Program-made: the position numbers and the translations under genes
Shown: piece by piece, positions 1,730 to 44,720 of the stretch
Position numbering within the stretch: the first letter of the stretch is position 1
Layout of the letters: every line of letters starts with the position of its first letter
Notes under the pieces: generated by a model
The model's input: only the letters and a program-made list of their open reading frames with translations
The model's database searches: none
Told to the model about the DNA's origin: nothing
Assembly (NCBI GenBank): GCA_003024175.1
Contig: MDYQ01000103.1
Location: 27,562 to 91,561 of the forward strand
From: Planoprotostelium fungivorum
Taxonomy: Eukaryota > Evosea > Variosea > Cavosteliida > Cavosteliaceae
Length of the DNA: 64,000 nt
Reading direction: 5' to 3'

Positions 1730-4700
1730 ATGGAACATGAAGTTCTCTCTGCATTCAACAAGAAGAGTCCTAATCTTCCAAAGATTCTATCTCAGATCAA
1801 GTTCAAAGAAATAAAACAAGTGATTACCAAACGATGCACCGATCGAGATGGAGATCCTACAGAATTTCTGAGGGCTATCTTCGAAGGTAAGTCCTCCTTC
1901 TTCAACCACGAGTCTTCTCTTGAAAGAGGAAAAGGTTCCCCACCAGAGACAGAAGAACCGAGGAGACTGAAGGCGATACGATTTGTTACCGAGTTACTGG
2001 AGACCGGTGTACTGGTAGACAAAAAGGCTACGTCTACCATTGAGTTCATCCTCTCTGAATTGATCTCAATGAGCAGTGACAGCTTGAAGGACATCTCGAA
2101 TAACATCGTCATCACTCTCCGTAGGAACGAACCTCACTACACGGGGAGATCCTTTGAATTACTACCGAAAGCCGTTGGTACCGTGTGTCGTTTAGACGCC
2201 GTCCCCGGTAGTGCCTCCCCATCCGATTTCAGGACAGAGGTGGGAGGATCATCGAGTCGTGATCTGATTCGAGTGATGATGCCAGATCTCGTCTGATCTG
2301 TGCGACACCGAGTGGCCCACTCACATCGCTTGGAAGATAGTACAAGAGCTGCGTGATATCACCTTCAGTGAGAGTGATCTGAAGAGGATCATCGACAAGA
2401 CGAGCAAGTGAGTGTATCAGACGTAGGCGTTCAATTGTTCTGACACGCTAGAGCGAAGAGTCCTCGATAAGGCTTCCATCAGCGACTCCTTACCTCTCAT
2501 CAATAACTTTCTTTTACTCGTGCGACAAGGCCCAAAGGTAAGAGGAGAAGCAGATGAAACTGAATTCACACAGACTGCTGTTTTGACTTCGATCATGAAT
2601 TATATGAATCAAGAGGAGGAGGGAGATAATGTGAATAAGAATCAATACTATGAGATGGAAGGCACGATCATCGCACAGATCAGAGCTTGCGATTACGACG
2701 GAGTGAGATCATTCGATGATGAATAGACTGACATGAATAGTCCATTGCTGACGAGTTTATCAAACTGATGAAGAAGAGTAGAGGCGAAACATGGACACCC
2801 TTTAACCTCGCCGTACTGCTGTCTATCGCAGAAGAAAGGAGATACGGAACGAAAATCTACGACTATTTGAAGCAGAGCATCAGCAATGAATACAAGAACA
2901 AAGTGCACCACAGGTCACCCTGGCTGAGCGGTGAGTGAGTTCTCTATCTCTTCATGACAGACGACAGTGATCACTTCGTTGCAAGAGAAGAATAAATCGA
3001 TAGAGAAGGCACTGATGGAGACGATCCACCACGCCTCGATGGGATGGGAGGGCATCATCCAGTCGATTGTACATTTCGGGATGATCTTGATGGATTCCTT
3101 AGTTCCTAAGTCTCCTCGTGAGTCGATCGATTGACATTGCATTCATCCCATCAGTGGTCTCTCTGGGCGAAAGAATCTTGTTCGAATGCTTCGAACGAGT
3201 TCAATCCGTTCAGAACGAAATCTTATCCACGGTGATCGATCGCATCGTGGACAGCTCTAAAAACGTGTGGTATTACACGGATCTATTGCACCGAATCGCA
3301 ACTTCTTCTCCCACACTCATCATGCACAATTACGAGAAGATCAAGGTGAGTCGTGAGAGGAATCATAAAATTGATGGTGACAGACGATGTTGGACTATTC
3401 ATCCTTCACCTACGTTCCTGATAGCATATTACGAGCACTGAAGCCAGCCATCGCGTTGCTCCCCCAGTTCATGGATCACACGATGATGGTGTTGAACAAA
3501 TGTCTCAACAACAGAGATCTCGACTCTAGATCAGCCACCGTCTCTGGATTCTTGTTCCTATTGCAGGTGATGGACTTGATCTCTCTCTATTCACATCCGA
3601 AAGGTACAAGATAACCAAGGAGATCTTTCCACGAGTTCCGAGATATTAGATGTATTACAGAGATGTCTGGAACAACAGAATGGCATCAGAGAGAGATTGT
3701 ATTACGGTCTCTTTCAAGTTCTAGAGGTGAGACCACTTCACTTAGAAGATACGAACGGATACAGGCGAATCCTTCCATAGAAGATCAAGTGTTCGACATC
3801 TTTCTGTCCCAATTACTGCATTACTATGACCCACAAGAGAGTGCATCACCGTTGAAACTCAGTGAATGCATTCAAGAGATCGAAAACGATGAATGGGAGA
3901 TAACGGAACCTCTCGATCACCTCATCAACGCCATACACTTGTCCATCGTCTGGAAGGACCTTCAAAACAAGGAGAAGGTGAAGAGAAAATACTTTTGAAA
4001 TTCCTGACAGGGCCAGGGGACTAAGGGAGGGAGAGACTCTTCCTTTGAGAGACTGAAGGAATACCTGCACACGTTGATCAAGAGAATGCTGACAGCAGAG
4101 CCCGAGCAATTTGAATTAGACAAATCATCCGATTATACGAAACGTAACGTACAATTATCCAGCGAGGTGAAGAATTGATCTCGAAGAGTGACTGATGGAT
4201 GTAGATATTGACAGGATGCATCGAGGCATTGATCTCTTACATGGTACGAACAGGACATCATGCAGATGGTACACCACAAGGAAGCAATGGAGTGGAGGGA
4301 AGCAACGGACAGATCATATCTGAGGATTGTGTGAAGGGAATGGTCAAACTCTTTGACTTCGCCGTCAGACTGAAGACAGCGGAGAGTGAGAGCATCAAGG
4401 GAGGGAAGAAAGGGAAGGAGAAGAACAAGGGTGGTGAGCTGATGGCTGAGTGGATTTCAGCTGAATGGACGATCAGAAAAGACCAAGAGCACAAAGAGTG
4501 CAGAGAAGGACAAGTGGACCATCTTCAGCTCAGAGACACTGGTCGATCTGTTATCCGTTGCCACCGATAGTTCAATGAAGGAGATGCTTGACGTGAGACA
4601 CGAACGAAGGAATTCCACTCACTCACACAGGCCACGTTCACGTCTCACTTGTTTGGAAGCATCCAAAACCGACTGAAACTATTGCACGTGGAATACGAAC

Positions 4701-6380: not shown

Positions 6381-9217
6381 TTATCTTCTCGTCTGACGAA
6401 ACTGTTCGATCTTCCGTCTTGATTTCTCGAGTTCCTGGTCTAAGTGGAACTTTGTCTTCTCTAAATCCTTCAGCACTGTTGCTCGATGGCTGATTCCTTC
6501 TCCCGTGAAGGTCTTTGTACTGTATCCATCTGCATCACCCCGGTGATACTGTTCGATCTCCTCTGGGATATGGATGTGGTCTGTGTGAGGTCAGCCGTAC
6601 ATCTCCTCTGTCACTCACTTGACCATCGCAGCTGTTTTCTCTCTGGCTCAAATGAGCCGGTGCTGGGTCTCTTCATGTTCGTCTTCTTCTCTAGCAGTCT
6701 GAATGATAATTCCAAATCCTCCTTCATCTGCTCCGTCAGGTCCTCCATCATCGCCTGACGATCATCTTGCGTCTGATCTTGTAAAGGAGAGGAAGTATTT
6801 AACGCCGAGTATGATGTAGGATGGTATGTACCAGGTGGGTGCGAGTTGACCGACTTTTTGTGTTTTAAGGAGAGATCCTCTTCTCTAAATGTTTCATCCA
6901 TCTTAAATTGGAATGTTTCTTTGTACGACGGAGCTTCCATCCGATGAGTGGTATAGCTATCGAATGTTCTCTCGCTCTCATTCTGGATGAAGATGAGATA
7001 CATCTCATTCATGTTCAATTACCTTAGTTTGAGTATATTGTGTGTGGAGATGGTTGTATTTCTCTTGTAGTTCGGCCAAAGCTTGTTCGGCGGTTAGTCT
7101 TCGGTTCCTCTCAGTCAGCATATCGTCGTGAGTGTTGCCTAATTTCTTCTGCAGCTTATCTTGCTCCTCCATCGTGTGCGTTCTTTCAGTGGATAAGAAT
7201 TGATTTGCGCTATCCAGTCTGTGCTGTAGCTCCTGTGCGCTGGATATCCTTCTCTCCCTCTCAGCCGCAACCTCTGCGTGGATATTGTCGAGCTTCCTCT
7301 GCAATCGTTCTTGCTCTTCTATCCTCGTCTTCCTTTCGTTCATCAAATCTTGATTTGCAGACTCTAATTTCTGCTGTGATTCTTCAATCTCCCTCTGGAG
7401 ATTCTGTATGATTCAGCCTTCTCTTCATCTCTCGCTTCTCACCCGTATCTCCTCCTCGTGTCTCACTTTTGTTTCTTTCATTTTTAATTCTAGGTCCCGT
7501 TGATTGGATGTCATTGCCTCGTGTTCCTCTTCTAATTTGGTGTGGTCATTTTGAAGTTGATTCAGTTCCTTCTCTGATTGAAGTAAACTCTCTTCCAACT
7601 GTGTGTTTGTTGCAGCCTGCTGTTCCATCACATCTGCACTGGCTGACACTTGTTCCTCCATCTTCTGAAATGTCGCCTGCGTCCTTGAGCTTCTCCTTCC
7701 CTCCTCTCCTCACCTCAAATTCTTTCAGCCTCTTCAGCAACTGTTCGTTCTCCGCCTCCAACTGTCTCGCAATGAATTGTAACTGTTTCGCCGAATGTGG
7801 AGTATCTGGGTGATCGTGAATGGGTGAGCTGTACATTGCGGGCAGGGGTGACTTCTTGGGGCTGTATCGCATAGGTGAAGTGGAGAAGGAGGAATCCAGG
7901 CTCTTTCTGCCTTCTCTTCTGATCCCTTGGGGTGAATGATAATCCACAGGAGACACCGGTCTGTGGATCTGTCCCGGCGACATGTCTGTCAATCGTCAGT
8001 CGTGATATTGTTGCTGGCGGTACCGTATCGAGGAGCCGAGAGGGTTTCACTGAGCCAGATGCGTATGCTCTTATCGCTGGATCCTGACCAAACGTGGAAA
8101 CCCACTGCCTGAAGACACCACACCCATCCGATGTGCCCCGGTAACACTTTGATCAGATTACCATTCTGTCCGAGGTCAGATGATCCCTCTCGTGGAGTGT
8201 CACCTTTGCATTCCATATTCTTATGGTCTTATCGCTAGAGCCAGTCCATATCATACCGCTCGCGTACAGTAGGCATGTGACCCATCCATTGTGCCCGTGG
8301 ATCTGCTTGATCTCTCTGTAGCTCTGTCTCAACGTATCAGCCACACGGGGAGAAGATCGAATATGTTCACTTGAGCATCCCAAGCAATGAACGTCTTATC
8401 AGCAGAGCCAGTCCATACTTGTCGTCCCACTACAATCATACACAAGACTCCTCCTGAATGTCCGTGGATCTCTTGCTCCAGTTCACCACTCTGTCATCGT
8501 CATCGAAGAAAACTCTTCCTCTCACCTCTTCATCCCAAACACGAATAGAAGTATCGTCAGAACCGGACCATATCTTCCCCTGGTAATATCCCAGACATCG
8601 AACCCAATTCGAATGCCCTGATATCACCTTCTTCGATGCTCCCGTCTGTATAGATGAGCGAGGATGAGCGAGATGGATGCCACCTGAGGATCCCAAGCTT
8701 TGATGGTTCGATCGCCAGCACCACTCCAAACGTATTGATCAGTTAAGATCAGCGCATTGATGTTCCCGCTGTGCGCTTGGATGTGCGCTACGCATTTACC
8801 CGTCTGAGCTTGATGAACATTCTGGGTTTGAGACCATTCACCTCTATGTGAACAACAGCAATCGATCCATCACTACTCCCGCACCAGACATTCTGCCCAA
8901 CCCTTAGCATGCAAGTAATCACATCCTCTTCTCTATTCCTCCCAGGAACTTGGTGGCGGCTGATCAGATCTCCAGACTAAATCTTTCGTAAGAGACCAAC
9001 CTCGATTCACTCTTCACCTTTGCGTCTCGTATCAAGATGTTGCCATTATATGATCCAGTCCACACTTGAGCACCCAAATCACTCTGTATAACTTCCATGC
9101 ATTGGACCTTCTGTGCGTCGGAGATGGATCTAACGAATCCACCGACTTCATTAACAGGCTATAGATTGTCAGACAATAAGAGGAGAGGCAATCCGTCACC
9201 CTCTTAGGAGAAGTCAT
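6381..9217 (-). CDS. WD40-repeat protein with C-terminal coiled coil
   Basis: ATG is at 9217-9215 and TAA at 6383-6381. The N-terminal half (about 9215-8000) encodes about seven WD40 repeats, which would form one propeller. Clear units include GHNGWVTCLLYASGMIWTGS followed by SDKTIRIW, GHSNWVRCLGYYQGKIWSGS, and GHIGWVWCL. A Ser/Pro-rich linker follows (SPVDY, SPMRYSPKK). A long charged coiled coil then runs to the end (QRKLDNIHAEVAAERERR, KSRRKIEQFRQTRR). This architecture suits a cytosolic or cytoskeletal scaffold; no specific ortholog is recognised. At least ten short introns are needed. The stop lies only 9 bp from the FANCI stop on the other strand, and the gene is in tandem with the receptor kinase upstream of it. 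Confidence 0.85.
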
Positions 9218-22168: not shown

Positions 22169-22177
22169 TACACAAGC

Positions 22178-22786
22178 ATCATAGTAAAAGGGAATATTAT
22201 AGCGGATTCATCTACAACTCACCTCACACTGAATGCTCACCTCCTGCGTTCTGTTTGGTGATCCTCTGCAAAACATTTGTAAGTGTTTGTGCGCTCTGTA
22301 CTCGCTTGTGCAGTCAGGGCGGAAATCTATACATTCAAATCAAACAAAAGACACAAGGAGGCAAAAGGCAGCTGTATATAAATAGGCTAAGCTGAAGTAG
22401 AATCAATTTATTTGAGGCTCACAAGGCCGTTCAATTGTTCTTGACGATGTCCTTTGCTGCGTAAGAAAACCTGGGGTGATGTTGGAAGTGCTCAATCCCT
22501 CTTCTCTTAGACAAGCTTTCTGACCAGCACTTGCAGTTTGGGTGATGTAAGACAGCTGTTCTCTCCGGGTGTCTCCGCCATAGTCCTTGGCCGCCTGTGC
22601 AAGATCTGCAGGAGTCTCAAAAGCTTTGGGAGGCATGTTTGGTGATGGTGAAGTGCTAGCTTGTGTATTCAGTCGGAAATGACGATTGAGCACTCTGCAG
22701 TTGGAGAATCCCTCCTTCTCTGCTTCCGCCATGAGATCCTCATGAGGGCGGTCTGCCACAAGGGATTCTGAGTAATGGAGTAAAAT
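22178..22786 (-). repeat. Leader-ORF-tail unit, copy 1
   Basis: Read on the minus strand, this unit has a conserved leader (22786-22709), a small ORF (22636-22403), then the conserved tail repeat R1 (about 22350-22178). The leader core matches the copy at 38722-38797 with only 2 mismatches in 53 bases. The tail is visibly similar over about 190 bases. The ORFs between them are unrelated. Confidence 0.7.
22403..22636 (-). CDS. Small variable ORF in repeat unit 1 (77 residues)
   Basis: ATG 22636 lies 72 bases after the conserved leader. The product begins MPPKAFETPADLAQAAKDYG and is hydrophilic, with an alpha-helical first half, two Cys and a basic end. No family is recognised. The TGA stop (22405-22403) sits inside or next to an AATAAA signal (22412-22407), the same arrangement seen at well-supported genes here. 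A longer in-frame extension into the leader is open but lacks an ATG start at its beginning. Whether it is translated is unknown. Confidence 0.4.
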   Translation of the reverse strand: MPPKAFETPADLAQAAKDYGGDTRREQLSYITQTASAGQKACLREEGLSTSNITPGFLTQQRTSSRTIERPCEPQIN

Positions 22787-22859
22787 TGTAACTCCGTTTC
22801 ACATGAAATGGCGGTCATGCGTGATGAGGTTCCTCAGATCATGAGATGACTCGCTTTTG

Positions 22860-23400
22860 TTCATTGAAACCAACGGAAAATGCAGAGATGCGTTACATAC
22901 CTTGAAGCCACCAAATTACAGACATGCAGCATGACCACAGCACCGCTCCTAATCTCACTCCCCGTCCAAACATACCTCCTCATTTCTCTTATCCGCTTCG
23001 CCATACACCTTCCCGTCCTGAACCGTCTCGTCCTGCTCCTCCACCATCGCATGGCCCTCCCCAGCATTACTGAGGATAATCTTGAGTCACTTAGATAAAG
23101 TCCTCACTCAAAACGTTTGCCACTCGTCTCTAAATCCTTTCTGCCAGGGCGTCAGGTCTGTTTGTGTGCCCTGCATTCAATTCTTTCTCATATGCTGAAT
23201 TTCTCAATCCACTATATGGTACAATCTTATAAGATACTGTTCATATTTAGCATCTGTATCATCATACTGTTCAACACATTTTTGAAACACCTCAGGACTA
23301 CCCCACATTCAAACTCGTACGAACTTCTATGTCTAGACTTGACTTTGGAGGCGGTATGTCGAGCATCGGCGGCGGAAGCGGCTATGGCGGCCGCTAATCT
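22860..23400 (+). other. Low-complexity coding-like fragments
   Basis: A Pro-rich frame (PSRPEPSRPAPPPSHGPP, about 23015-23067) can be joined by a splice to MQRC at 22880. Later, a Gly-rich frame (MSSIGGGSGYGGR, TAA about 23396) begins right after a possible 3' splice site. Between them lies a degenerate copy of the ORF fragment found at 31.8 kb. It may be one small low-complexity gene or unrelated debris. Confidence 0.2.
23157..23300 (-). repeat. Degenerate copy of the 31.8-kb ORF fragment
   Basis: About 140 bases match 31787-31922 with scattered changes and one small insertion. On the minus strand both encode a PEVFQ-CVEQY-DAKYEQY type peptide. This copy carries frameshifts, so it is a dead fragment of a dispersed coding element. 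Confidence 0.6.
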
Positions 23401-23529
23401 GATTCCAATCTAATGCCACAACGGACAGCATCACCGGCTGTTGTCATAAACATAAACAAATTCAAATTTGTTGGCTTTGTATCATGAGAGTGAGAGTTGC
23501 AGAGAAATGCGCTAGGTTGCTCATATTTT

Positions 23530-23745
23530 CGCTCATCTCATCGGCTGTGCACCTTGTGTCTTTCGTATGAATTGAATGCAGAGATTTCCACCCAGTCGCA
23601 TAAAGCATGCGCAGAGCACACGAACGCTTACAAATATTTTGCACAGGATCTCCAAACAGAACACAGGAGACGAGCATTCAGTGAGAGGTGAGTTGTAGAG
23701 AAATGAACTATAATACCCCCTTTTACTTTGATGATACTCACATTC
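23530..23745 (+). repeat. R1 tail repeat, copy 2
   Basis: This copy contains the R1 core (GCTTACAAATATTTTGCA, then CCAAACAGAACACAGGAG and GAGTTGTAGAGAAATG) and ends in ACTATAATACCCCC-TTTTA. It is in the opposite orientation to the copy at 22178-22350, so the two form inverted repeats around 1.2 kb. Confidence 0.75.
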
Positions 23746-23908
23746 AGCCAATCTGAATTCCCGATTTTGTTAACACGTGATCAAATGTTGAATGGTGGTC
23801 TCGTGGGAAAAGTGCCCACCTGTCCAAAAGACAATTTGGTGAGAATTCGTCATTTTCTCAAGCACAACGCTAGTTATACGTGTTGATGTTCTTCTTTACG
23901 AGCACAGA

Positions 23909-25487
23909 ATGACCGAAAAGCGAGAAAGTGATTATGAGACGAAACGTTCTCCGGGGGAACAAGTCAACGAGCCCGACCTCACCTGGGACAAACGTTTGGA
24001 CACAAACACGTTCAGTATGGGCGTAGCAGAACTTATGCGCCGCAAGAGCCCTGATCCAGTAACCAAAGTGGGTTGCTGCATCCTGGATGGTCACAGTGGC
24101 AGAGTGAGCCCAGTCATTGACGTTCTTCCTCGAGCCTGATAAACATGACAGATTTTGTCTGCAAGTTATAACGGTTTAGTGGCTGGGTTATACACCCAAC
24201 CGAATACTTGGGCAAAGAACAAAGACAACTACCTTCAACACGCAGAGCGCAATGCGCTAAATCTGCAGCCCAACGAGTTCAACCATTGTAATGATATAGT
24301 TGTGTACACTACCATGATACCCTGCATCAAATGTGCAGCTATGTTGATGCAGGTGGAGACTTGAATTCTCTATTATTAAGCTGACAATCACAGCACAGTA
24401 CACAACAAATTATATACAATGTAGCAGCAAAGAAGTATTATGAGGAATCAAAACCTGCTTTTGATCAGGCTCAGATTGGCTGTATGTGAGTATATCATTG
24501 GGCGAGTATAGATAACTTCCTGACAGCAGCTTGGGCAATTTGTATGATGATGCTCTTGGTTACATCACCTTAAAACCATACGGGAAACACCGGGATCCGG
24601 GCTTTGAGAAAGTCGTCAAACTTGAAGTTGCTGAGAAAGTGCAAAAGGCTACAATTACCAAGTGGTCAGAGATCCATATGAGTGTCGCAATGTTAGCAGC
24701 AAAGCGATGCAATCAAGGCATCGATCCCAGTGTAAGATCTGGATGTTGTATCGTTGAGAAGCACACAGAAAAGGTAAACCTGTTGCCAGACTCAAATCTA
24801 AATACACTAAAACGACTAATTCATAACAGATTCTCTCGTGCGGTTTTACTGGTCTACCCAAGCAATTGAAATTTGAAAAACCGAATGAGAAGATGATCAT
24901 CTCAGCCATTGGCAATGCTTTACGTTTTGCGGGAGATGTACAAGGTTCTACTATATATTGCATCAGAAGTCCCACAATGCATGACATCATAGAGTGTTGT
25001 CAGGTGATATACTCATGTTATTCCCATCTCCATCAAGTTCCTCTGATTATCAATCAGAGGGGAGTAGCAAAGGTATACTGCTTTGATGATATTCCGGAGG
25101 CTATGCATCGTTTGGTTTCTGAGCATCCTATCTGCCTCAGGTTGGGATTGCTGTGTTAAAATCACTTATTCTTCCAGGACCTTTGATACAAAGGAAACTG
25201 GCAACTATTACGAGGACATTGGATGGTGCAAAATTGAGAGAAAAGATGGAAGTTCATGTGATGATTCGTATGGTGAAAGGAAAGGACAATCCTCCATCAT
25301 TCAGATGCCGACCGAGGAGGAGAGGAAATGTGAATGGGTTCAATACTGCAAGGACCAGCAAGACCTGAACCAGAAGTGGAGGGAGAACAAGTTACCTATG
25401 AGCGAAATCAAAAAAATGCTCCCAACAAGGCGAGAGGGGATCCTTTCACCCAAAACCCTCCACTATGATGACCAGGGAAATCATTAA
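23909..25487 (+). CDS. Double-domain cytidine/dCMP deaminase, second domain degenerate
   Basis: Zinc-dependent deaminases of the dCMP/CDADC1 type convert cytosine to uracil in nucleotides. Domain 1 (about 24000-24480) keeps the zinc ligands and catalytic Glu: HAERNAL (HAE at 24239-24247) and PCIKC (24320-24334), preceded by ILSASYNGLVAGL. Domain 2 (about 24560-25140) repeats the layout (RSGCCIVEKHTEK, ILSCGFTGLPKQL). However, the HAE position reads SAIGNAL (24902-24922) and no PCxxC follows (SPTMHDIIECC). Domain 2 is therefore probably non-catalytic. A charged C-terminal tail (KWRENKLPMSEIKKMLPTRR) follows. The start is ATG 23909, with about seven short introns. Human CDADC1 also carries two such domains, so a CDADC1-like role is possible. 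Confidence 0.85.
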
Positions 25488-25944
25488 GCGGCTGTGTTGC
25501 CGAGGACCAGATTCACCTGCTGTTGTCTGATAAACTTGCATTCAAAAATTGCGCCTTCTTGTCACCAACACTGACCAAAGCAGACCATAAAAAACAACAG
25601 AGGAGAGGGACAAAGATGATCTGTAGGAAGGATCTGGGCCCAGAGGTGAGCATTCAGTGGCGAGTTGTAGATAAATGCACGACGATGTCCCCTTTTACTC
25701 TCTGGACATCAGCAAGACACGACACAGGAAGTGTCTGTTTGCACAGATAAAAGCCATAAAATCGACTCTGGATATAATTTGAACAGAGCACAGGAAGCAA
25801 GCAAACAGAGAGCAGGGTGTTGTAGATAAATCCGCTATAATATCCCCTTTTAATATGATGACAAGCACTGTCCTTCCTGTGTGTTGCTCACAGAGCGCTC
25901 AGAGATAAAAGGAATGCAATTTCATCGAATATTTTACATCTCGA
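25488..25944. other. Intergenic with two partial R1 repeats
   Basis: Two truncated R1 copies lie at about 25640-25710 and 25785-25866. They are recognisable by GTTGTAGATAAAT and the CCCCTTTTA-type end. No gene is seen. Confidence 0.6.
25640..25866 (+). repeat. Two tandem partial R1 tail repeats
   Basis: Both pieces show the R1 3' half in the same orientation (GAGTTGTAGATAAATGCAC, then TCCCCTTTTA; and GTTGTAGATAAATCCGCTAT, then ATCCCCTTTTAATATGATGA). Internal parts are missing or diverged. Confidence 0.6.
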
Positions 25945-31559: not shown

Positions 31560-32221
31560 AGATGGCCAGCAATGGCTTAGCAGCCCCTAATGGGGCCAAA
31601 CTGATATCTGAATAAAATTTGAAACCTGAACCTGAACTGAACCTGTTCATCTTCATACACTGCTTCTTGTTATTGTATGATGCTAGCTCTTTATCAAGGT
31701 AATCTCCTGGGCTCCTACTCACACACTCTCTGATACCCTTAAGTAAATGTTGAATCTTCATCCTGGGAGGTGGTTGTAACACTGTTTTTCTGTTTGTATG
31801 TCCAGCATTTGATTCTTATTCATATGCTGAGATTCTCAAACCACTATATGGTACAATCTTGTACTGTTCATATTTAGCATCTGGATCATTGTACTGTTCA
31901 ACACATGTTTGAAACACCTCAGGAGGTGTATGTTTTGCCACATATCCTTTAGGACAGATATTTATTGTATGCTTGCAGTTTCATGACTGGATTTTCATCT
32001 AGAGCTACTTGAAACTGTTCATTATCTGCCAACATCTTAACTGCTGCAAGACTGACCTTTCCTGTTTGATGTCTAAATTGTTCATTCAAGCTGTTGAAAA
32101 CAGGAAAGTCTATGAGCTCAATAATGTTATCTTGTGTCAGATAATTGAGAAGTTGACTGATGGGCATCTCATGAAATATTTTCGGTTCAGTCCTTTCCAG
32201 TTTAATAAAGTCGTAGTTCAT
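31560..32221 (-). pseudogene. Broken ORF, part of a dispersed coding element
   Basis: A 90-codon minus-strand frame (32221-31949) reads MNYDFIKLERTEPKIFHEMP through SLAAVKMLADNEQFQVALDE and stops at YLS. The next frame continues as KGYVAKHTPPEVFQTCVEQY and KIVPYSGLRISAYE until a stop near 31815. A third frame (MLQPPPRMKIQHLLKGIREC) continues to 31558. A frameshift and stops separate the parts. The middle part has a diverged copy at 23157-23300. The family is unknown; Gln/Asn-rich replication or transposition accessory proteins could look like this. No intact copy is in the window. Confidence 0.45.
31577..31640 (+). repeat. Short dispersed repeat (copy 1 of 2)
   Basis: This piece contains ATGGGGCCAAACTGATATCT, then GAATAAAA and CCTGAACCTGA. 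It is matched at 33178-33222 by ATGGGGTCAAATTGGTCATC with the same continuation. The GAATAAAA plus CCTGAACCTGA tail suggests the 3' end of a transcribed short element. Confidence 0.5.
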
Positions 32222-33307: not shown

Positions 33308-36300
33308 TCACCTCTTTGCAATGGGTGTCTTTCCTGTTGTTGAGAAAGCCCCTTTCTTTGTCTTTTTGTCTTCCTCCGACGATGAACCGTCCAACGCCTC
33401 ATCCTGTGCGGTGTACAACTTCCTTCTGATCTTTGCTGAAGCCCCATTGTTCTCCTTGTTCACCACTGTGTCCTTTTCCTCTTTATCCTTTCCGAGAATG
33501 CGGCTTAATATGCGTCCTCCCTTCTTCTTCTTGTCCTTCTTCTTCTCTGAGAGAGTGTGAGAACAGGAGATTGAGAGAGGTACGCACCGGAGGGAGATTC
33601 AGCATCACTCTCTTCATCGCTCTTGTTGTTCCCCTTGAGGGGATCAAACACCGTGTAGTCGTCTGGGTTCCTGGACGCCTCTGGGGGTGTGATGGGAGTC
33701 TCTTCCGAATCGAATGTGGAGGACATCAGCTCGGATTGCGAAGGATTCTCTGGGCTCGTGAAGCTCTGTACACTATTGAACGAGCTTCCCGATGCCGTTC
33801 TCTGTGCCTTTGGCGTGACGTGCACATCCTCCACCTAATCGATTTCAGAAAGATGTACATCCAGATGGGCATTTCCAAAGAGTAGATCAACAGGCGCAAA
33901 GAAAAGACGAAGAGATATCGAAGAGAACAGGTACCTGAGTGAATGTGACCGAGACTCCATCGCCAGTGAGAGACTTTTCAACGTCAGCAGTGATCATCTG
34001 AACACTCGAGTAGGAGGATGCAGAGCTTCCGGGTGATTGTTGGATGAGAGCGTACTTCTGGTGCTTCTTCAGCTCCTTCTTAGTGGGGGTGGTCATCCTC
34101 TTTCCGTTGGGCATGGGTGGTAATCCCGCGTCTACTCCACCCTCATTCATACTGTAGAGCACCTACTCTGTCAGTCACACCCCTGCACTCTCTCACCTTG
34201 GAGCCCTTATCCTTTCCAAGAGAAGAGAACGGTGACCTCGACTTCTTCGGTGTGGAAGTCTTCACCATCAGCTCGTTCAGTCTGGCCTTCAACTCGGAAT
34301 TTTCTGCAGCCACCTTCTGTGTCTCTCTCCTCTCTTCCTCCAGCTGCTCCATCAACTCTGCGCACCTCTCCTCCAGCTCCCTCTTCTTCTCTTCCCACTG
34401 GCTCTCCTTCATCGAGATCTCCAGTGCAGCCGCCTGTGACTCCACCTTCACCTTGTGCGCCTCCTCTAATTCCTTCTCCAGTCTCTCCAGCTACCTCCCG
34501 TCAATCCCCCTACCTCTATCGTCTCACCTCTCTCTCCAATCGATTCACTTCCTCTCTCAATTCGGTCTTATCCGCCACGTTGGTCTTGCTCTGTATGACT
34601 TCTGACTCCCTCTCATTGTACATGTTCAACAGGGCCTGTCTCGTTAGTTTCACCCGTGGAGGGATCTTCACCTGGTATTTCTTGTTGAACGTCTCCTCTT
34701 GGTTCTTCTTGTCCCTGTCGAGTCTCTTCTTCCAGTCTGCCTCCATGATGGATATCCTCTCCGCTACTTCCTTTCCCATCTCAAATCGTACCCTCGCCTC
34801 TTCTGCCTCCAGAATCGTATGCATGTCGATCGCATCGGCTTCCACCGCCTGAATGCCACTCTCCATCCCTCCTTTCTTTGCACTCATGGGATAGTGATTC
34901 CTTCCCGTATCGAGCTTTGATGTTTGTGCCAGTGTCATCTCCTTCGCCATGGCCGAGAAGCGGAGGACCTGTTCACCCTCAACCGATGACTCTCAGAGGA
35001 TCGACTCACTTGGATGGTCTCGTCGTAATCAGATGAACCGGGAGAAGCGTTGACGATCATTGTTGCCTTGGCACTACTGCTGCCACCGAAGAATTCTTGA
35101 AAGAGTCGAGTCAGCTTGGAGTCACGGAAGGGTACGGGTCTCGTCTGGGAGGGGTGCATCTGATTGTATCTCAGAGCTTCTATACATCTTCCGAACGTCA
35201 TCAGTGATGTGTTGATGTTTGCTGCTTCTTTCAGAGCTGCTCCCGTCGTCTTCGTTCGTCTGTTCCTCTCCGATCCTGCAAACGAATCAACGTTCGCTCT
35301 CCTCAGCCTGCATTCACCTGCGAGGTCTACAATGGAGAGTTTGTGGAGGCGGATCAATGAGCTGTTCGCCTTGACTTCCTCCTTGGAGATGTTCTTGGGC
35401 ACTTCAATGAGCTTGATCTCGATGACGGAATGACTTCTGCTCGAGTCATGGTTCAGTTGGGTATTGGCAACTTGTCTGTTCCTCTGTCCCCTGATAATCA
35501 GCTTTTGCGCTTCGTCTGAGGAGGAGACTCTGAATTCCTTCAATTGGTCCACAAAGATCACTCCATTCTTGGCTTCCTTCAGCTTGAGGAATTGTCTCTT
35601 GGATGGATCCAATATCGCTTCGTCCAACAGATCGTACACCTGCGACGGTTATTCGGGTCGTTTACGGTGCATACCTTCTCATTGTAGATCTCAAAGTAGG
35701 AGATCATGAGAGCGTACTTGGAGTTGGGGTTGGTGGAGATCTTGGTCGTCTCGTGGAACTTGGGAAACTCCTCTTCCATATCAGAGACAGAGGAGATATC
35801 GTACTCCGATGTAGAGTACTCCAGGTCTCCGGGTAGCTTCTTCGCACCACGGAAGGGCGTCTTCGCTCTGCATTCGTCAGTCCTTCGTCTTGATTAGGAC
35901 ATCACTTTGGGGTCAATGTGGAATCACTGGCGATGCTATTGAAGATGACATCCAAAGTACGCGGGAGGATGCCAGGGTCGATCTTGGTACCACCGATGGT
36001 GAAGGTCTTTCCAGCGTTGGTGATACCGTAGGAGAACAAGAGCCCGTTGTGTCCCTCCAGCAAACTCCTCACGATTGGCAGTGCGGCGACCTGAAACACT
36101 TCCTGCTGAGAAGTCTTCTCATTTAACACTCCTTCTTCACTTCAGTGACTTTGTCTTTCTCCATACCTCACCTGTGAAGGTGAATCGGTTCTCTTCTCCA
36201 TTGTTCTTGGATTCCTTCGGTGCTCTGATGTTAATGGCACAAGGATCCTCGCAAGCGGATATGCAGATTGTATCACCTCTGGACGTTTCGTCTCGATTAA

Positions 36301-37147: not shown

Positions 37148-38284
37148 TCAGTCGGGCGGCCTGATCTTGGATCTGTTGTTCAAAGGGACAGATACATCCG
37201 CCATTTGATTGGAGGGAGCAGCTATTGGGCCTTCTTGTGGAGCTCTGCCGACTTGAGATTTCCAGAGAAGGTAATAGACAATAACGAGTTCTTTGACAGA
37301 GTCCCAGACTGCTGGCACGGCATCCCAGTTTGATGAGCCGAAGAAGAAAGAAGCCACTGCAAGTCCAAGAGAAATTCCGAAAAGGACGAAGGCAAACTTC
37401 CAAGAGTCACCCTGCTCACTATTCCCTATATCAGATTATTGGTACAGAGGAATGTTGTTATATACGTAAAATTTGTAATCAATGGAGAATAAAGAAGGGT
37501 TTAGACTCACTGGCTTGGGCGAGGATTATCCATTTCAACTGCAGAGTAAACAGGGTTCCAACGATCTTTGCGCGACGAGAATATAGAGAATAAAGAAGGG
37601 TTCCCAGAGGGTAAACCTGACTCACTAATATTTCATTGTACCATGGATCTGGTCGATTGTCGAAGGGCCTGGGCCAGGCTGGTCCTGCGGGAGTGAGGCG
37701 GGTTGAGCTGCTTTTTTGGCTTTTGAGTATGTGACTCGTGAATAGTGGAAAGTAATGGCGTCTTTTCCGAGTGTCCACACTGCAAGGAGGATTGCATTTG
37801 GGATGGTGGTTCTGGCTGCGTATCCTGCCCAGGTTGAAGCATCCTGTGCGGCTGCGTAGTTGCTTGCTGTGCTGTTTGTGGCTGCAAGATTAGCTGCTGC
37901 TTTTTCTGACGACTCGTATGTAAATACGCTTGTAAGGATGGCTGGGACCAGAAGTACGCAGGATCCAACCAAGAAGAGAAGCTGTGCCTTTGGGAAACTG
38001 ACTATATAATTAAATCAACACCACAACAAAAAAAAAGTTACCAGATCTTTGCGCGACGAGAATATAGAGAATAAAGAAGGGTTGAAACTCACCGGCTGGG
38101 GCTGAGCAGAGAGCGGCGTATCAGATTCCCATCTAGTTAGAATCGATCGGAGTTGCAAAATTGAGACCTCTGGCCAAACCTCGTGGACAATGCTTATTCG
38201 TTCCGCCTCTGTCTTGGCTGTCTTAATATCATCCCATGGGACAGGGAGGGTGTTCTTGAAGATATCGAACGGTGCCTGGGCCAT
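37148..38284 (-). CDS. Uncharacterised four-helix membrane protein
   Basis: ATG 38284 starts MAQAPFDIFKNTLPVPWDD, a soluble region of about 65 residues ending in a Gln/Pro stretch. Then come hydrophobic segments LLFLVGSCVLLVPAILTSVF (about 37970), NAILLAVWTLG (about 37790), FAFVLFGISLGLAVASFFFG (about 37385) and ELVIVYYLLW (about 37275). TGA is at 37150-37148. The loop before helix 3 is basic and Pro-rich (SKAKKAAQPASLPQDQPGPG). Joining the first and second exons in phase needs either a 5-base microexon or an unseen splice site, so the model is tentative. Three of its introns share one internal sequence. A possible 5' exon (38566-38345) may extend the gene upstream. No family is recognised. 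Confidence 0.55.
37485..37602 (-). repeat. Introner-like sequence in two adjacent introns
   Basis: On the minus strand, the intron sequence AACCCTTCTTTATTCTC occurs at 37502-37486. A longer version occurs at 37602-37563 and is identical over 40 bases to 38083-38044. Both lie just inside GTGAG-type donor sites. Confidence 0.7.
38044..38083 (-). repeat. Introner-like sequence, second identical copy
   Basis: These 40 bases are identical to 37563-37602 and lie in a different intron of the same membrane-protein gene, starting a few bases after GTGAG. A related version lies at 43846-43872 in another gene. Confidence 0.75.
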
Positions 38285-38721
38285 GTTGTTTATCTAAAAT
38301 GTGTTGGTGAAAAGATGATCCGCCTCATCATCTTGCGTATGAAATTACCTTTGGAATATTCGAGGCGGAGATGTTCGGCGACGAGACGATGTGGACGAGA
38401 TCTGTGATGGAATTAGAAAATGAGACAGATACCACTGACGTCTATAAAAAGAGATCCATTTGCAGAAGTCTTCATTACCTTTCAAGACGGCTCGAAATGT
38501 GGTCTCTAACTGACAAATGATGATACTAAACCAGAATGAGTCAGAATGAAGAAGTTGCGACGTCAACGTAACGAGAGTGACGATGATTTGTTCGTTCGTT
38601 TACCTGTGCGTGGTCGTATCGAGGTGTCTGGAAAGTGAAAACGGACGAAAGAAATTACATTATGTGATATCTTTTTTACGATATCGCAATAAATTCCGGA
38701 ACGAAAAGTTTCGTGAAACAC

Positions 38722-39232
38722 TTTACTCCGTCTCTTAGAATCCGTTGTGGCAGAGTGCCCTCATGAGGATCTCATGGCGGAAGCAGAGAAGGAGGGACTT
38801 TATTGATCTGTGTGAGGAAACGTTCATTTTCAAGCAAACACACAAGCGAACAACAACAACATGCCCAAGAAAGGTCGTAGAACTACCACCACCACTACTC
38901 CTAGTGAGCCCGACGAGTGCAACTGGGGCTACAATGGTGAAGGCAAGCCCATCACCATGGACGAATGGAATCAGGGAAATGACTGAGCAACAATGTAGCC
39001 AGAGACTCAGTATCACCCCGCTTGTCTTCATGACCATTTTGCCACTCTGTGTCTTGGTTTTGTATGATTTGAGTGTATAGATTTCCACTCAGTCTGCATA
39101 AAGCGAGTACAGAGTGCACGAACGCTTACAAATATTTTGCAGAGGATTACCAAACAGAACGCAGGAGGCGAGCATTCAGTGCAAGGAGAGTTGTAGAGAA
39201 ATGGACTATAATACCCCCTCTTACTATGATGG
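38722..39232 (+). repeat. Leader-ORF-tail unit, copy 2
   Basis: The leader (38722-38797) is followed 63 bases later by a 41-codon ORF (38861-38986), and then by the R1 tail (about 39040-39232). The order and spacing match copy 1 at 22786-22178. The leader core TCATGAGGATCTCATGGCGG is identical in both. Confidence 0.7.
38861..38986 (+). CDS. Small variable ORF in repeat unit 2 (41 residues)
   Basis: ATG 38861 gives MPKKGRRTTTTTTPSEPDEC and ends GKPITMDEWNQGND, TGA 38984-38986. It is hydrophilic, with a basic Thr-rich start and an acidic second half. It shares nothing with the ORF of unit 1 except the MP-K start and its place in the unit. A longer overlapping frame in another register (38763-39080) also starts inside the leader and ends in a hydrophobic stretch (PLVFMTILPLCVLVLY). 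I cannot say which frame, if either, is used. Confidence 0.35.
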   Translation: MPKKGRRTTTTTTPSEPDECNWGYNGEGKPITMDEWNQGND

Positions 39233-43749: not shown

Positions 43750-44161
43750 TCATGAGACGCAGCCAAAAAGACCCCTCTCAGCCGCCGCTATGCGAGCTAG
43801 AGCCTGAGAGGTTTGTAGAGCCCCATAGAGGCCTTGGGGACACCACGACGAGAACAGAGAATAAAGAAGAGTCGGGACTCACCGGCGGGGGCGGTCTGGA
43901 TGGGAGGAGGAGAGTATTTCTCAATAGTGGCCTTGATAGCAGCCCACTCGTTTCTCTGTACAGCACGATACCATACACCAACTCTTTCGTCTTCTGCAGA
44001 CTTGATCTTCACAGCGGCGAGACCATAAAAGTCGAGGTCATAACCGTCTGCGGTGTGTCCCTCTATCGCTGTCAGTGACCACGAAGCTGATGAGGAGACG
44101 AGCTCACCTGCTGATGACTTCGAGAGCTCTCAACATCTGGAGCTGATCGCGAACTGACATG
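43750..44161 (-). CDS. Small uncharacterised protein
   Basis: Coding sequence is clearest in EGHTADGYDLDFYGLAAVKI, KSAEDERVGVWYRAVQRNEW and AAIKATIEKYSPPPIQTAPA, then ALARIAAAERGLFGCVS, TGA 43752-43750. Its last intron carries the same internal sequence as introns of the gene at 37.1-38.3 kb. ATG 44161 (MSVRDQLQMLRALEV) is the nearest start, but its phase into the next exon is not clean. The gene may instead begin further upstream (up to about 44530). Short blocks in that 5' region also resemble the 5' region of the 37.1-38.3 kb gene. Function unknown. Confidence 0.4.
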
Positions 44162-44539
44162 TTTCTGATTGAGAGAGGCCAAACGTTTGGTTCGAGTGAG
44201 ATCTGTGGACGGTTGGAGTGTGTCTTTGGCGCGGGGCGATGAAATGAGACAGATTAAGACCTGAATGAAATCAGAAACCGCGAAATGTTCACCAACGTCC
44301 ACAGAAGAAGTTGAGTATTTGGTTTGAGGATATTACCTCTGGAAGGCGGCTTGAAATGGTCTTCTAAAGAATAAACGGGTGAGATACGGACCCAAGACCT
44401 GGATGAAAGTTAAGAAAATGTAGAGCAACGCCTTAAACCGTGGCCAGGGTTCAATTCTATATTATTAGTTACCTTTGAGGACACCTCTTCTTTCCGTTCA
44501 TACGTAACTCACCCGCGGGTAATTTGCCATTTTGGCTCA

Positions 44540-44720
44540 GCAAGCAAGCAGGTGGTTAGTAGAAGTTTCCAACTAGTCTGCATAAAGCATACTGAGAGTG
44601 CATGAAAGCTTACGAATCATTTCTAAAGAATTTCCAAACAGATCATAGGAAGCAAGCATTCAGTGTGTGGTGAGTTGTAGATAAATGCACTATATAATAC
44701 CCTCTTTTTATATGATGAAG
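44540..44720 (+). repeat. R1 tail repeat, diverged copy
   Basis: Full-length but more diverged R1 (TCTGCATAAAGCATAC, CAAGCATTCAGTGTGTGGTG, GAGTTGTAGATAAATGCACT, then ATACCCTCTTTTTATATGAT). It lies between two minus-strand genes. Confidence 0.65.

Follow-up and report, generated by a model that had tools for sequence, protein, structure and literature searches.

Two short units in a 64,000-nucleotide stretch of the genome of Planoprotostelium fungivorum (Amoebozoa, Variosea; 36.9 Mb), hereafter the window, are probably the ends of non-autonomous, Maverick-related elements with terminal inverted repeats (TIRs), which carry Crinkler-type genes as cargo and have been diversified by recombination in shared noncoding blocks; we put the probability of this reading at roughly 0.7. 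As we picture it, TIR elements that are kin of the Maverick/Polinton elements of the same genome would insert with a 5-bp target-site duplication, and a Maverick-type integrase would move the cargo elements in trans. A small gene lies just inside one TIR and reads towards it; judging from their positions, a two-way promoter probably serves both this gene and the Crinkler-type gene. The mosaic copies suggest that small ORF, header and effector are swapped when the TIR, leader/intergenic and intron blocks undergo recombination or gene conversion. The small proteins may be made, and the Crinkler-type proteins may act as toxins or effectors.

Layout of the two units

The original prediction described two units in which a conserved leader and a conserved tail enclose unrelated small ORFs. 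Both units were found, in opposite orientation: the leaders (22709-22784 and 38722-38797) are 91% complementary over 76 nt, the tails (22177-22366 and 39037-39231) are 84% alike over 195 nt, and the ORFs of copy 1 and copy 2 gave no mutual tblastn match.

In copy 1, the conserved tail (22177..22366, plus strand) is the left TIR of an element; it has a sharp end, CATCATAGTAAAAGGG, and is preceded by the left 5-bp target-site duplication, ACAAG (22172..22176). Further in lie the small ORF (22403..22636, minus strand), which begins MPPKAFETP, is frameshifted and belongs to class A, the conserved small-gene leader (22709..22807, minus strand), and a conserved intergenic block (22831..23156; 72% to C17), which in other copies sits between the small gene and a divergent Crinkler-type gene. 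A second TIR end of 182 bases (23552..23733, minus strand), resembling a 183-base solo copy on contig C155 (L029 1493-1675), is nested in the element, whose interior (23740..25640) is followed by the right TIR (25782..25860, minus strand; 79 nt, 80% complementary) and the right 5-bp duplication, again ACAAG (25861..25865). The 77 codons predicted for the copy 1 ORF are there as read, but the frame is shifted near the C-terminus by a one-base deletion; intact class A relatives begin MPPKAFETPADLAQAAKDYGGDTRREQ and have 68 codons.

Copy 2 has its TIR at 39037..39231 (minus strand), a class B small ORF of 41 codons beginning MPKKGRRTTT at 38861..38986 (plus strand) and the conserved leader at 38720..38796 (plus strand). 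Beyond the leader lies header exon 1 of a divergent Crinkler-type gene (38093..38284, minus strand; MAQAPFDIFKNTL...), open to a GTGAGT donor, and the conserved end of exon 1 together with the start of intron 1, block B3 (82%), is found at 38058..38105 (minus strand). With its class B small gene, leader and open header exon, copy 2 fits the scheme seen at other loci. The copy 2 TIR and the end at 22177, its only outward partner in the window, have no shared duplication. A further header/TIR set occupies 43781-44717; it comprises a header/intron-1 block (43781..43898, minus strand; 82%), whose header is unreadable from an ATG, and the third TIR end of the window (44595..44717, minus strand), with the block downstream of it.

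The limits first drawn for the units, 22786 and 38722, have to be moved outwards, since homology runs 0.5-1 kb further in most of the compared copies, where the leader is followed by the intergenic block and then by a divergent gene. The proposal of a non-autonomous element with fixed ends was supported in that sharp ends, inverted repeats and an exact 5-bp duplication (four of 22 pairs, including the one around copy 1) were found; the proposed layout was not, in that the "tail" is a TIR, the fixed unit extends further than first drawn, and swapping beside a Crinkler-RHS-like gene involves three or more cassettes, of which the small ORF is just one.

Several further features of the window were recorded. 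An exact 40-base direct repeat (37563-37602 and 38044-38083) is the repeated intron 1 start of the copy 2 Crinkler-type gene, and recalls tandem header/intron blocks on C156, C83, C115 and C287. Two pieces of one protein domain (YKIVPYSGLRNSxYEKELNAGHTNR) lie at 23157-23297 and 31789-31924; further pieces were seen on C37 and C156, the latter giving no Pfam match. A kinesin motor exon (34935-35639; E = 1e-47) is part of an ordinary host gene lying between copy 1 and copy 2, and an Rfam search of the window from 21 to 40.5 kb returned no RNA family.

Inverted repeats, duplications and Maverick-type genes

Copy 1 and copy 2 are pieces of one large repeat family, with at least 59 genome matches for the former (40 of 193 candidates scored) and at least 74 for the latter (40 of 152 candidates scored). 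The sharp boundary that copy 1 has at 22177 recurs elsewhere; 43 places begin at or within 1-2 bases of the same end, a few of them with one or two end bases changed, and their flanks differ except in one pair (L047/L024). A strict 26-base motif internal to the end had 56 exact occurrences in the genome, against 0 for the control. Three solo TIR copies begin at the same CTTGTGTC.

A TIR-end profile built from 49 ends was mapped on all fetched loci and yielded 87 exact ends; ends were dropped if the flank was shorter than 8 bp, the score was below 12 or the match started late in the profile, and the profile's own 49 ends were among those tested. Outward-facing ends on the same contig and within 20 kb of each other formed 22 pairs, on 13 contigs and with some pairs sharing an end. 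An exact 5-bp duplication flanked four of these 22 pairs, compared with 5 of 1,830 pairs of ends from different contigs (Fisher p = 1.8e-6), whereas duplications of 4 bp and of 6 bp were each found in 0 of 22, and pairs in the wrong order had a 5-bp duplication in 0 of 9 cases. The four are the window pair 22177-25860 (ACAAG; 3,684 bp) and pairs on C149 (GTTTG; 3,546 bp), C245 (CCACA; 1,054 bp) and C377 (TAAGT; 3,380 bp). Fixed inverted ends and a duplication of fixed length in these pairs are the characters of a TIR DNA transposon, and suggest that the elements have transposed. The other 18 outward pairs showed no duplication, among them the Maverick pair on C396 and the C17 spans that hold Crinkler-type genes, so that no Crinkler-bearing element is proven mobile by a duplication of its own.

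The C245 element has the order TIR, decayed small gene, leader, TIR, and the unit as originally predicted therefore comes close to being the whole element in this instance; on C419, a TIR is joined almost directly to a leader, with no ORF. The interior of the window element (23740-25640) had no other genome match save for its last ~180 bp, which matched one place, on C127, in a search that skipped very common words; it is possibly captured host DNA. An ORF in this interior gave a weak primase zinc-finger match (E = 0.0016, below the cut-off).

Other ways of reading the ends were considered and rejected. The ends at 22177 and 23733 could be paired as a single 1,557-bp element, but this pair has no duplication, whereas 22177/25860 has one. 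Helitrons end in 5' TC and 3' CTRR and make no duplication; the ends here read CATCAT...ATGATG, and both the Helitron reading and a reading as the 3' end of a non-LTR element were dropped because of the TIR pairs with 5-bp duplications.

Segmental duplication or gene conversion near chromosome ends might instead have spread the pairs of small and Crinkler-type genes as a subtelomere-like gene family, with no transposition and with the sharp ends as mere duplication edges. Strict-motif ends do cluster near contig ends: of 23 such places on contigs with a known length above 65 kb, 17 are within 15 kb of a contig end, as are 7 of 7 on contigs longer than 200 kb (contig size is known for all but 7 of the 56 places), and repeat-driven segmental duplication may therefore contribute. 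Tandem and nested arrays on C417 and C354 also accord with this account. We nevertheless regard it as unlikely, given that 43 places whose flanks differ share a single end, that the duplications are specific to a length of 5 bp, that the solo TIR on C155 is embedded in sequence without a match to any other element compared, and that ends lie deep inside C142, at 55-60 kb of 333 kb.

The tie to Maverick/Polinton elements comes from the genes found between related ends. On C396, ends at 4194 and 14365 enclose an rve integrase core (7579-7887, in a 352-aa frame) and a family-B DNA polymerase (from 9927 on, in a 1,242-aa frame). The C377 element is a young relative, with TIRs identical over 176 bp; its interior holds remnants of an rve integrase core (E = 5e-12) and a piece of family-B polymerase (E = 0.037, below the cut-off). 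The TIR studied here resembles the C377 Maverick TIR without being identical to it, at about 80% similarity over 131-166 bp. An rve integrase was also found between TIRs on C303, where the left end is decayed. Across the genome, the polymerase model PF03175 gave 10 matches, nine of them over the cut-off and with frames of up to 1,242 aa, and none in 14 control genomes; one of the nine, that on C396, lies between TIR ends. The rve model gave 43 genome matches, some of which may be retrotransposons, and no rve integrase was found between the TIRs of the copies studied here.

The C17 contig provides a separate observation, a 317-aa open frame for a DDE_Tnp_4 transposase (L050 4223-5174) inside a 7.6-kb TIR span, which it shares with a kinase-type Crinkler-like gene and a small gene of class A.

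Crinkler-type genes and the probable exchange of cassettes

Past the leader, a conserved intergenic block of 0.5-1 kb is followed by a gene that reads away from the TIR. This Crinkler-type gene is predicted to consist of a first exon of 60-85 codons, a conserved intron start with the donor GTGAGT, and variable downstream exons. When 40 matches to the intron-1 block were scored, out of 101 candidates, 18-20 of the 40 were preceded, at a distance of 0.3-2.6 kb, by a TIR end facing the same way; the higher count, which represents 17 loci, includes ends in fetched loci, among them C115 and C74. Other arrangements were an opposite end upstream (3 of 40), an inverted end downstream (one, on C74) and a same-way end downstream (one, on C276), and 20 of the 40 blocks had no TIR end upstream, with about 1.5 kb of flank covered for the 30 fetched ones. 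At 14 loci the small gene inside the TIR stands head-to-head with the Crinkler-RHS-like gene across a shared intergenic block; 11 of these carry a class A gene (two partial), two a class C gene, and window copy 2 a class B gene.

The predicted exon order runs from the header to an NTPase/nuclease-like, kinase or HNH effector, where splicing is predicted and the nuclease label is putative, taken from a motif. Effector exons include a kinase-like domain over both the RIO1 and the APH cut-offs, an HNH_2 domain (E = 7e-12), and P-loop pieces with sub-threshold STAND matches. A nuclease-like stretch on C37, which from its motif we take to resemble the CR nucleases, has four diverged relatives (two on C334, one each on C298 and C211) with RLDF(W/Y)(I/V)N...FEL in common; two of the four carry stops. 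The predicted fold of the nuclease-like protein was discarded as evidence at a pLDDT of 31. Searched as single exons, 12 headers and four effector stretches gave no match to the Pfam Crinkler or RHS models.

That Crinkler-type genes begin beside a TIR in 18-20 of 40 cases, and that C37 has both P-loop and nuclease-like exons, would agree with a gene that mobilises the element by itself through these two domains, after the transposon origin proposed for CR proteins. Such self-mobilisation appears highly improbable; kinase-like or HNH exons fill the same place in other copies, integrase and polymerase genes are enclosed by TIRs of a related type, and no Crinkler-bearing span has a duplication.

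We return to the preferred reading, of Maverick-related elements diversified by recombination, and to the cassettes that would be exchanged. The noncoding blocks stay conserved, while small ORF, header exon and effector exons vary and occur in different combinations. Headers of at least 30 aa were obtained from 30 of 37 intron-block sequences; 28 of them fell into nine groups and two were set aside, one as an off-frame read and one as an exon with N. No fewer than three classes of small ORF, unrelated to each other, were distinguished: A, B and C, the last with members beginning MSGNSGHNL and MSEKVGGHSL. Whole class A ORFs precede seven header groups. The header MTDPNLP occurs with class A on C156 and with a decayed class C on C389, and the header MSIPHY with class A on C35 and with class C on C37. 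Over the 1,319 bp that run from the leader across the header and into intron 1, C37 and C35 share 94.8% identity; on the far side of the leader edge they have unrelated small ORFs. This excludes the possibility, named in the original prediction as its refutation, that the whole units are simply diverged copies of one sequence. Because the TIR, the leader/intergenic block and the intron 1 start are similar and the coding pieces differ, whole cassettes appear to be swapped by recombination or gene conversion. The swaps are accounted for no less well by recombination between copies than by the suggested capture of short genes through transposition.

A fast-evolving family of small proteins, offered at first as the alternative to an element, is not supported by the ORFs themselves: most full-length class A ORFs share 87-97% identity with their majority sequence (71 and 76% in two whose frame is broken), and there is no relationship among classes A, B and C. 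Class A had 19 protein relatives at E <= 0.001, 17 from Planoprotostelium fungivorum and 2 from metagenome entries. An AATAAA lies 3' of the class A ORF in 14 of 15 aligned copies and precedes the tail, and the tail was rejected as a 3' UTR of the small gene. Purifying selection on class A was not supported by the data, with a pN/pS of 0.76 (bootstrap 0.41-1.49; 8 copies, core) that is compatible with no constraint; values were 0.71 for class A in 13 copies, and 0.75 (5 copies) and 0.22 (2 copies) for headers. The predicted fold of class A has three helices, at modest confidence (pLDDT 60 overall, 50-80 in core blocks). The model had no match to the PDB at E <= 0.001, and a PDB sequence search with P0005 gave a best E of 1.5 and nothing usable.

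Least probable of the accounts weighed here is a selfish toxin-antidote pair riding on the TIR element, in which the small protein would neutralise the divergent Crinkler-type protein; the head-to-head order across a shared intergenic block at 14 loci suits it, but class A occurs with seven header groups and two headers occur with both A and C, so that the pairing of small gene and header is not specific, and the class A pN/pS is compatible with no constraint. As an extension of the recombination reading that we hold doubtful, Maverick-derived TIR elements might form a eukaryotic combinatorial arsenal, carrying a Crinkler-type toxin gene and a divergent small partner and reshuffling small gene, header and effector cassettes independently via conserved noncoding blocks, perhaps as selfish toxin-antidote systems or as amoeba defence against viruses or competitors.

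Comparison with known systems

Like Maverick/Polinton elements, the family described here has TIRs, a short target-site duplication and, between TIRs, a gypsy-like rve integrase and a family-B DNA polymerase (on C396, and as remnants on C377); unlike them, the copies that gave rise to this study have neither gene; what they carry is a Crinkler-type gene together with a small gene. Target-site duplications are 6 bp long in Polintons and 5-6 bp in mavirus. TDD-4, the Ginger2/TDD-4 element of Dictyostelium, is not known to encode a family-B polymerase or to carry Crinkler cargo. The two systems have in common that they are amoebozoan TIR elements with an integrase-like transposase and a 5-bp duplication; the TDD-4 element is 3.8 kb long and has TIRs of 260-297 bp (PMC2836005).

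Endogenous Maverick-like viruses have been reported in protists (PMC10120064), in a paper whose main text has no occurrence of "protostelium" or "Crinkler". Among the open-licence literature matches listed, none dealt with Crinkler genes as cargo of Maverick-type elements; the nearest mentions a viral contig of Phytophthora parasitica that has four CRN genes along with many Polinton pieces (PMC8204020).

The elements bear on how Crinkler-RHS proteins spread and diversify. Shared TIR ends, 5-bp duplications and many recombinants occur beside Crinkler-type genes in a single genome, so that mobility and cassette exchange can both be tested directly in it. CR proteins (Zhang et al. 2016, as presented in PMC5289972) have header domains and an association with Helitrons; their domain content has led to the proposal that they arose from transposons, and for Phytophthora shuffling by Helitrons has been put forward (PMC5289972). 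As predicted, the genes described here would resemble those that encode CR proteins in the variable N-terminal header, the P-loop/nuclease-like, kinase or HNH effectors and the modular recombination set out in that paper. They differ in that the junction is the border of exon 1 and intron 1, with a conserved intron, where that of the CR proteins is the coding motif HVLVVVP (PMC5289972), and in that they gave no Pfam Crinkler or RHS match and are linked to TIRs and to a divergent small gene. The Helitron-linked CRN clusters of Phytophthora infestans likewise tie effector genes to a transposon family and exchange modules; there the transposons are Helitrons, whereas here they are TIR elements with a target-site duplication (PMC5289972).
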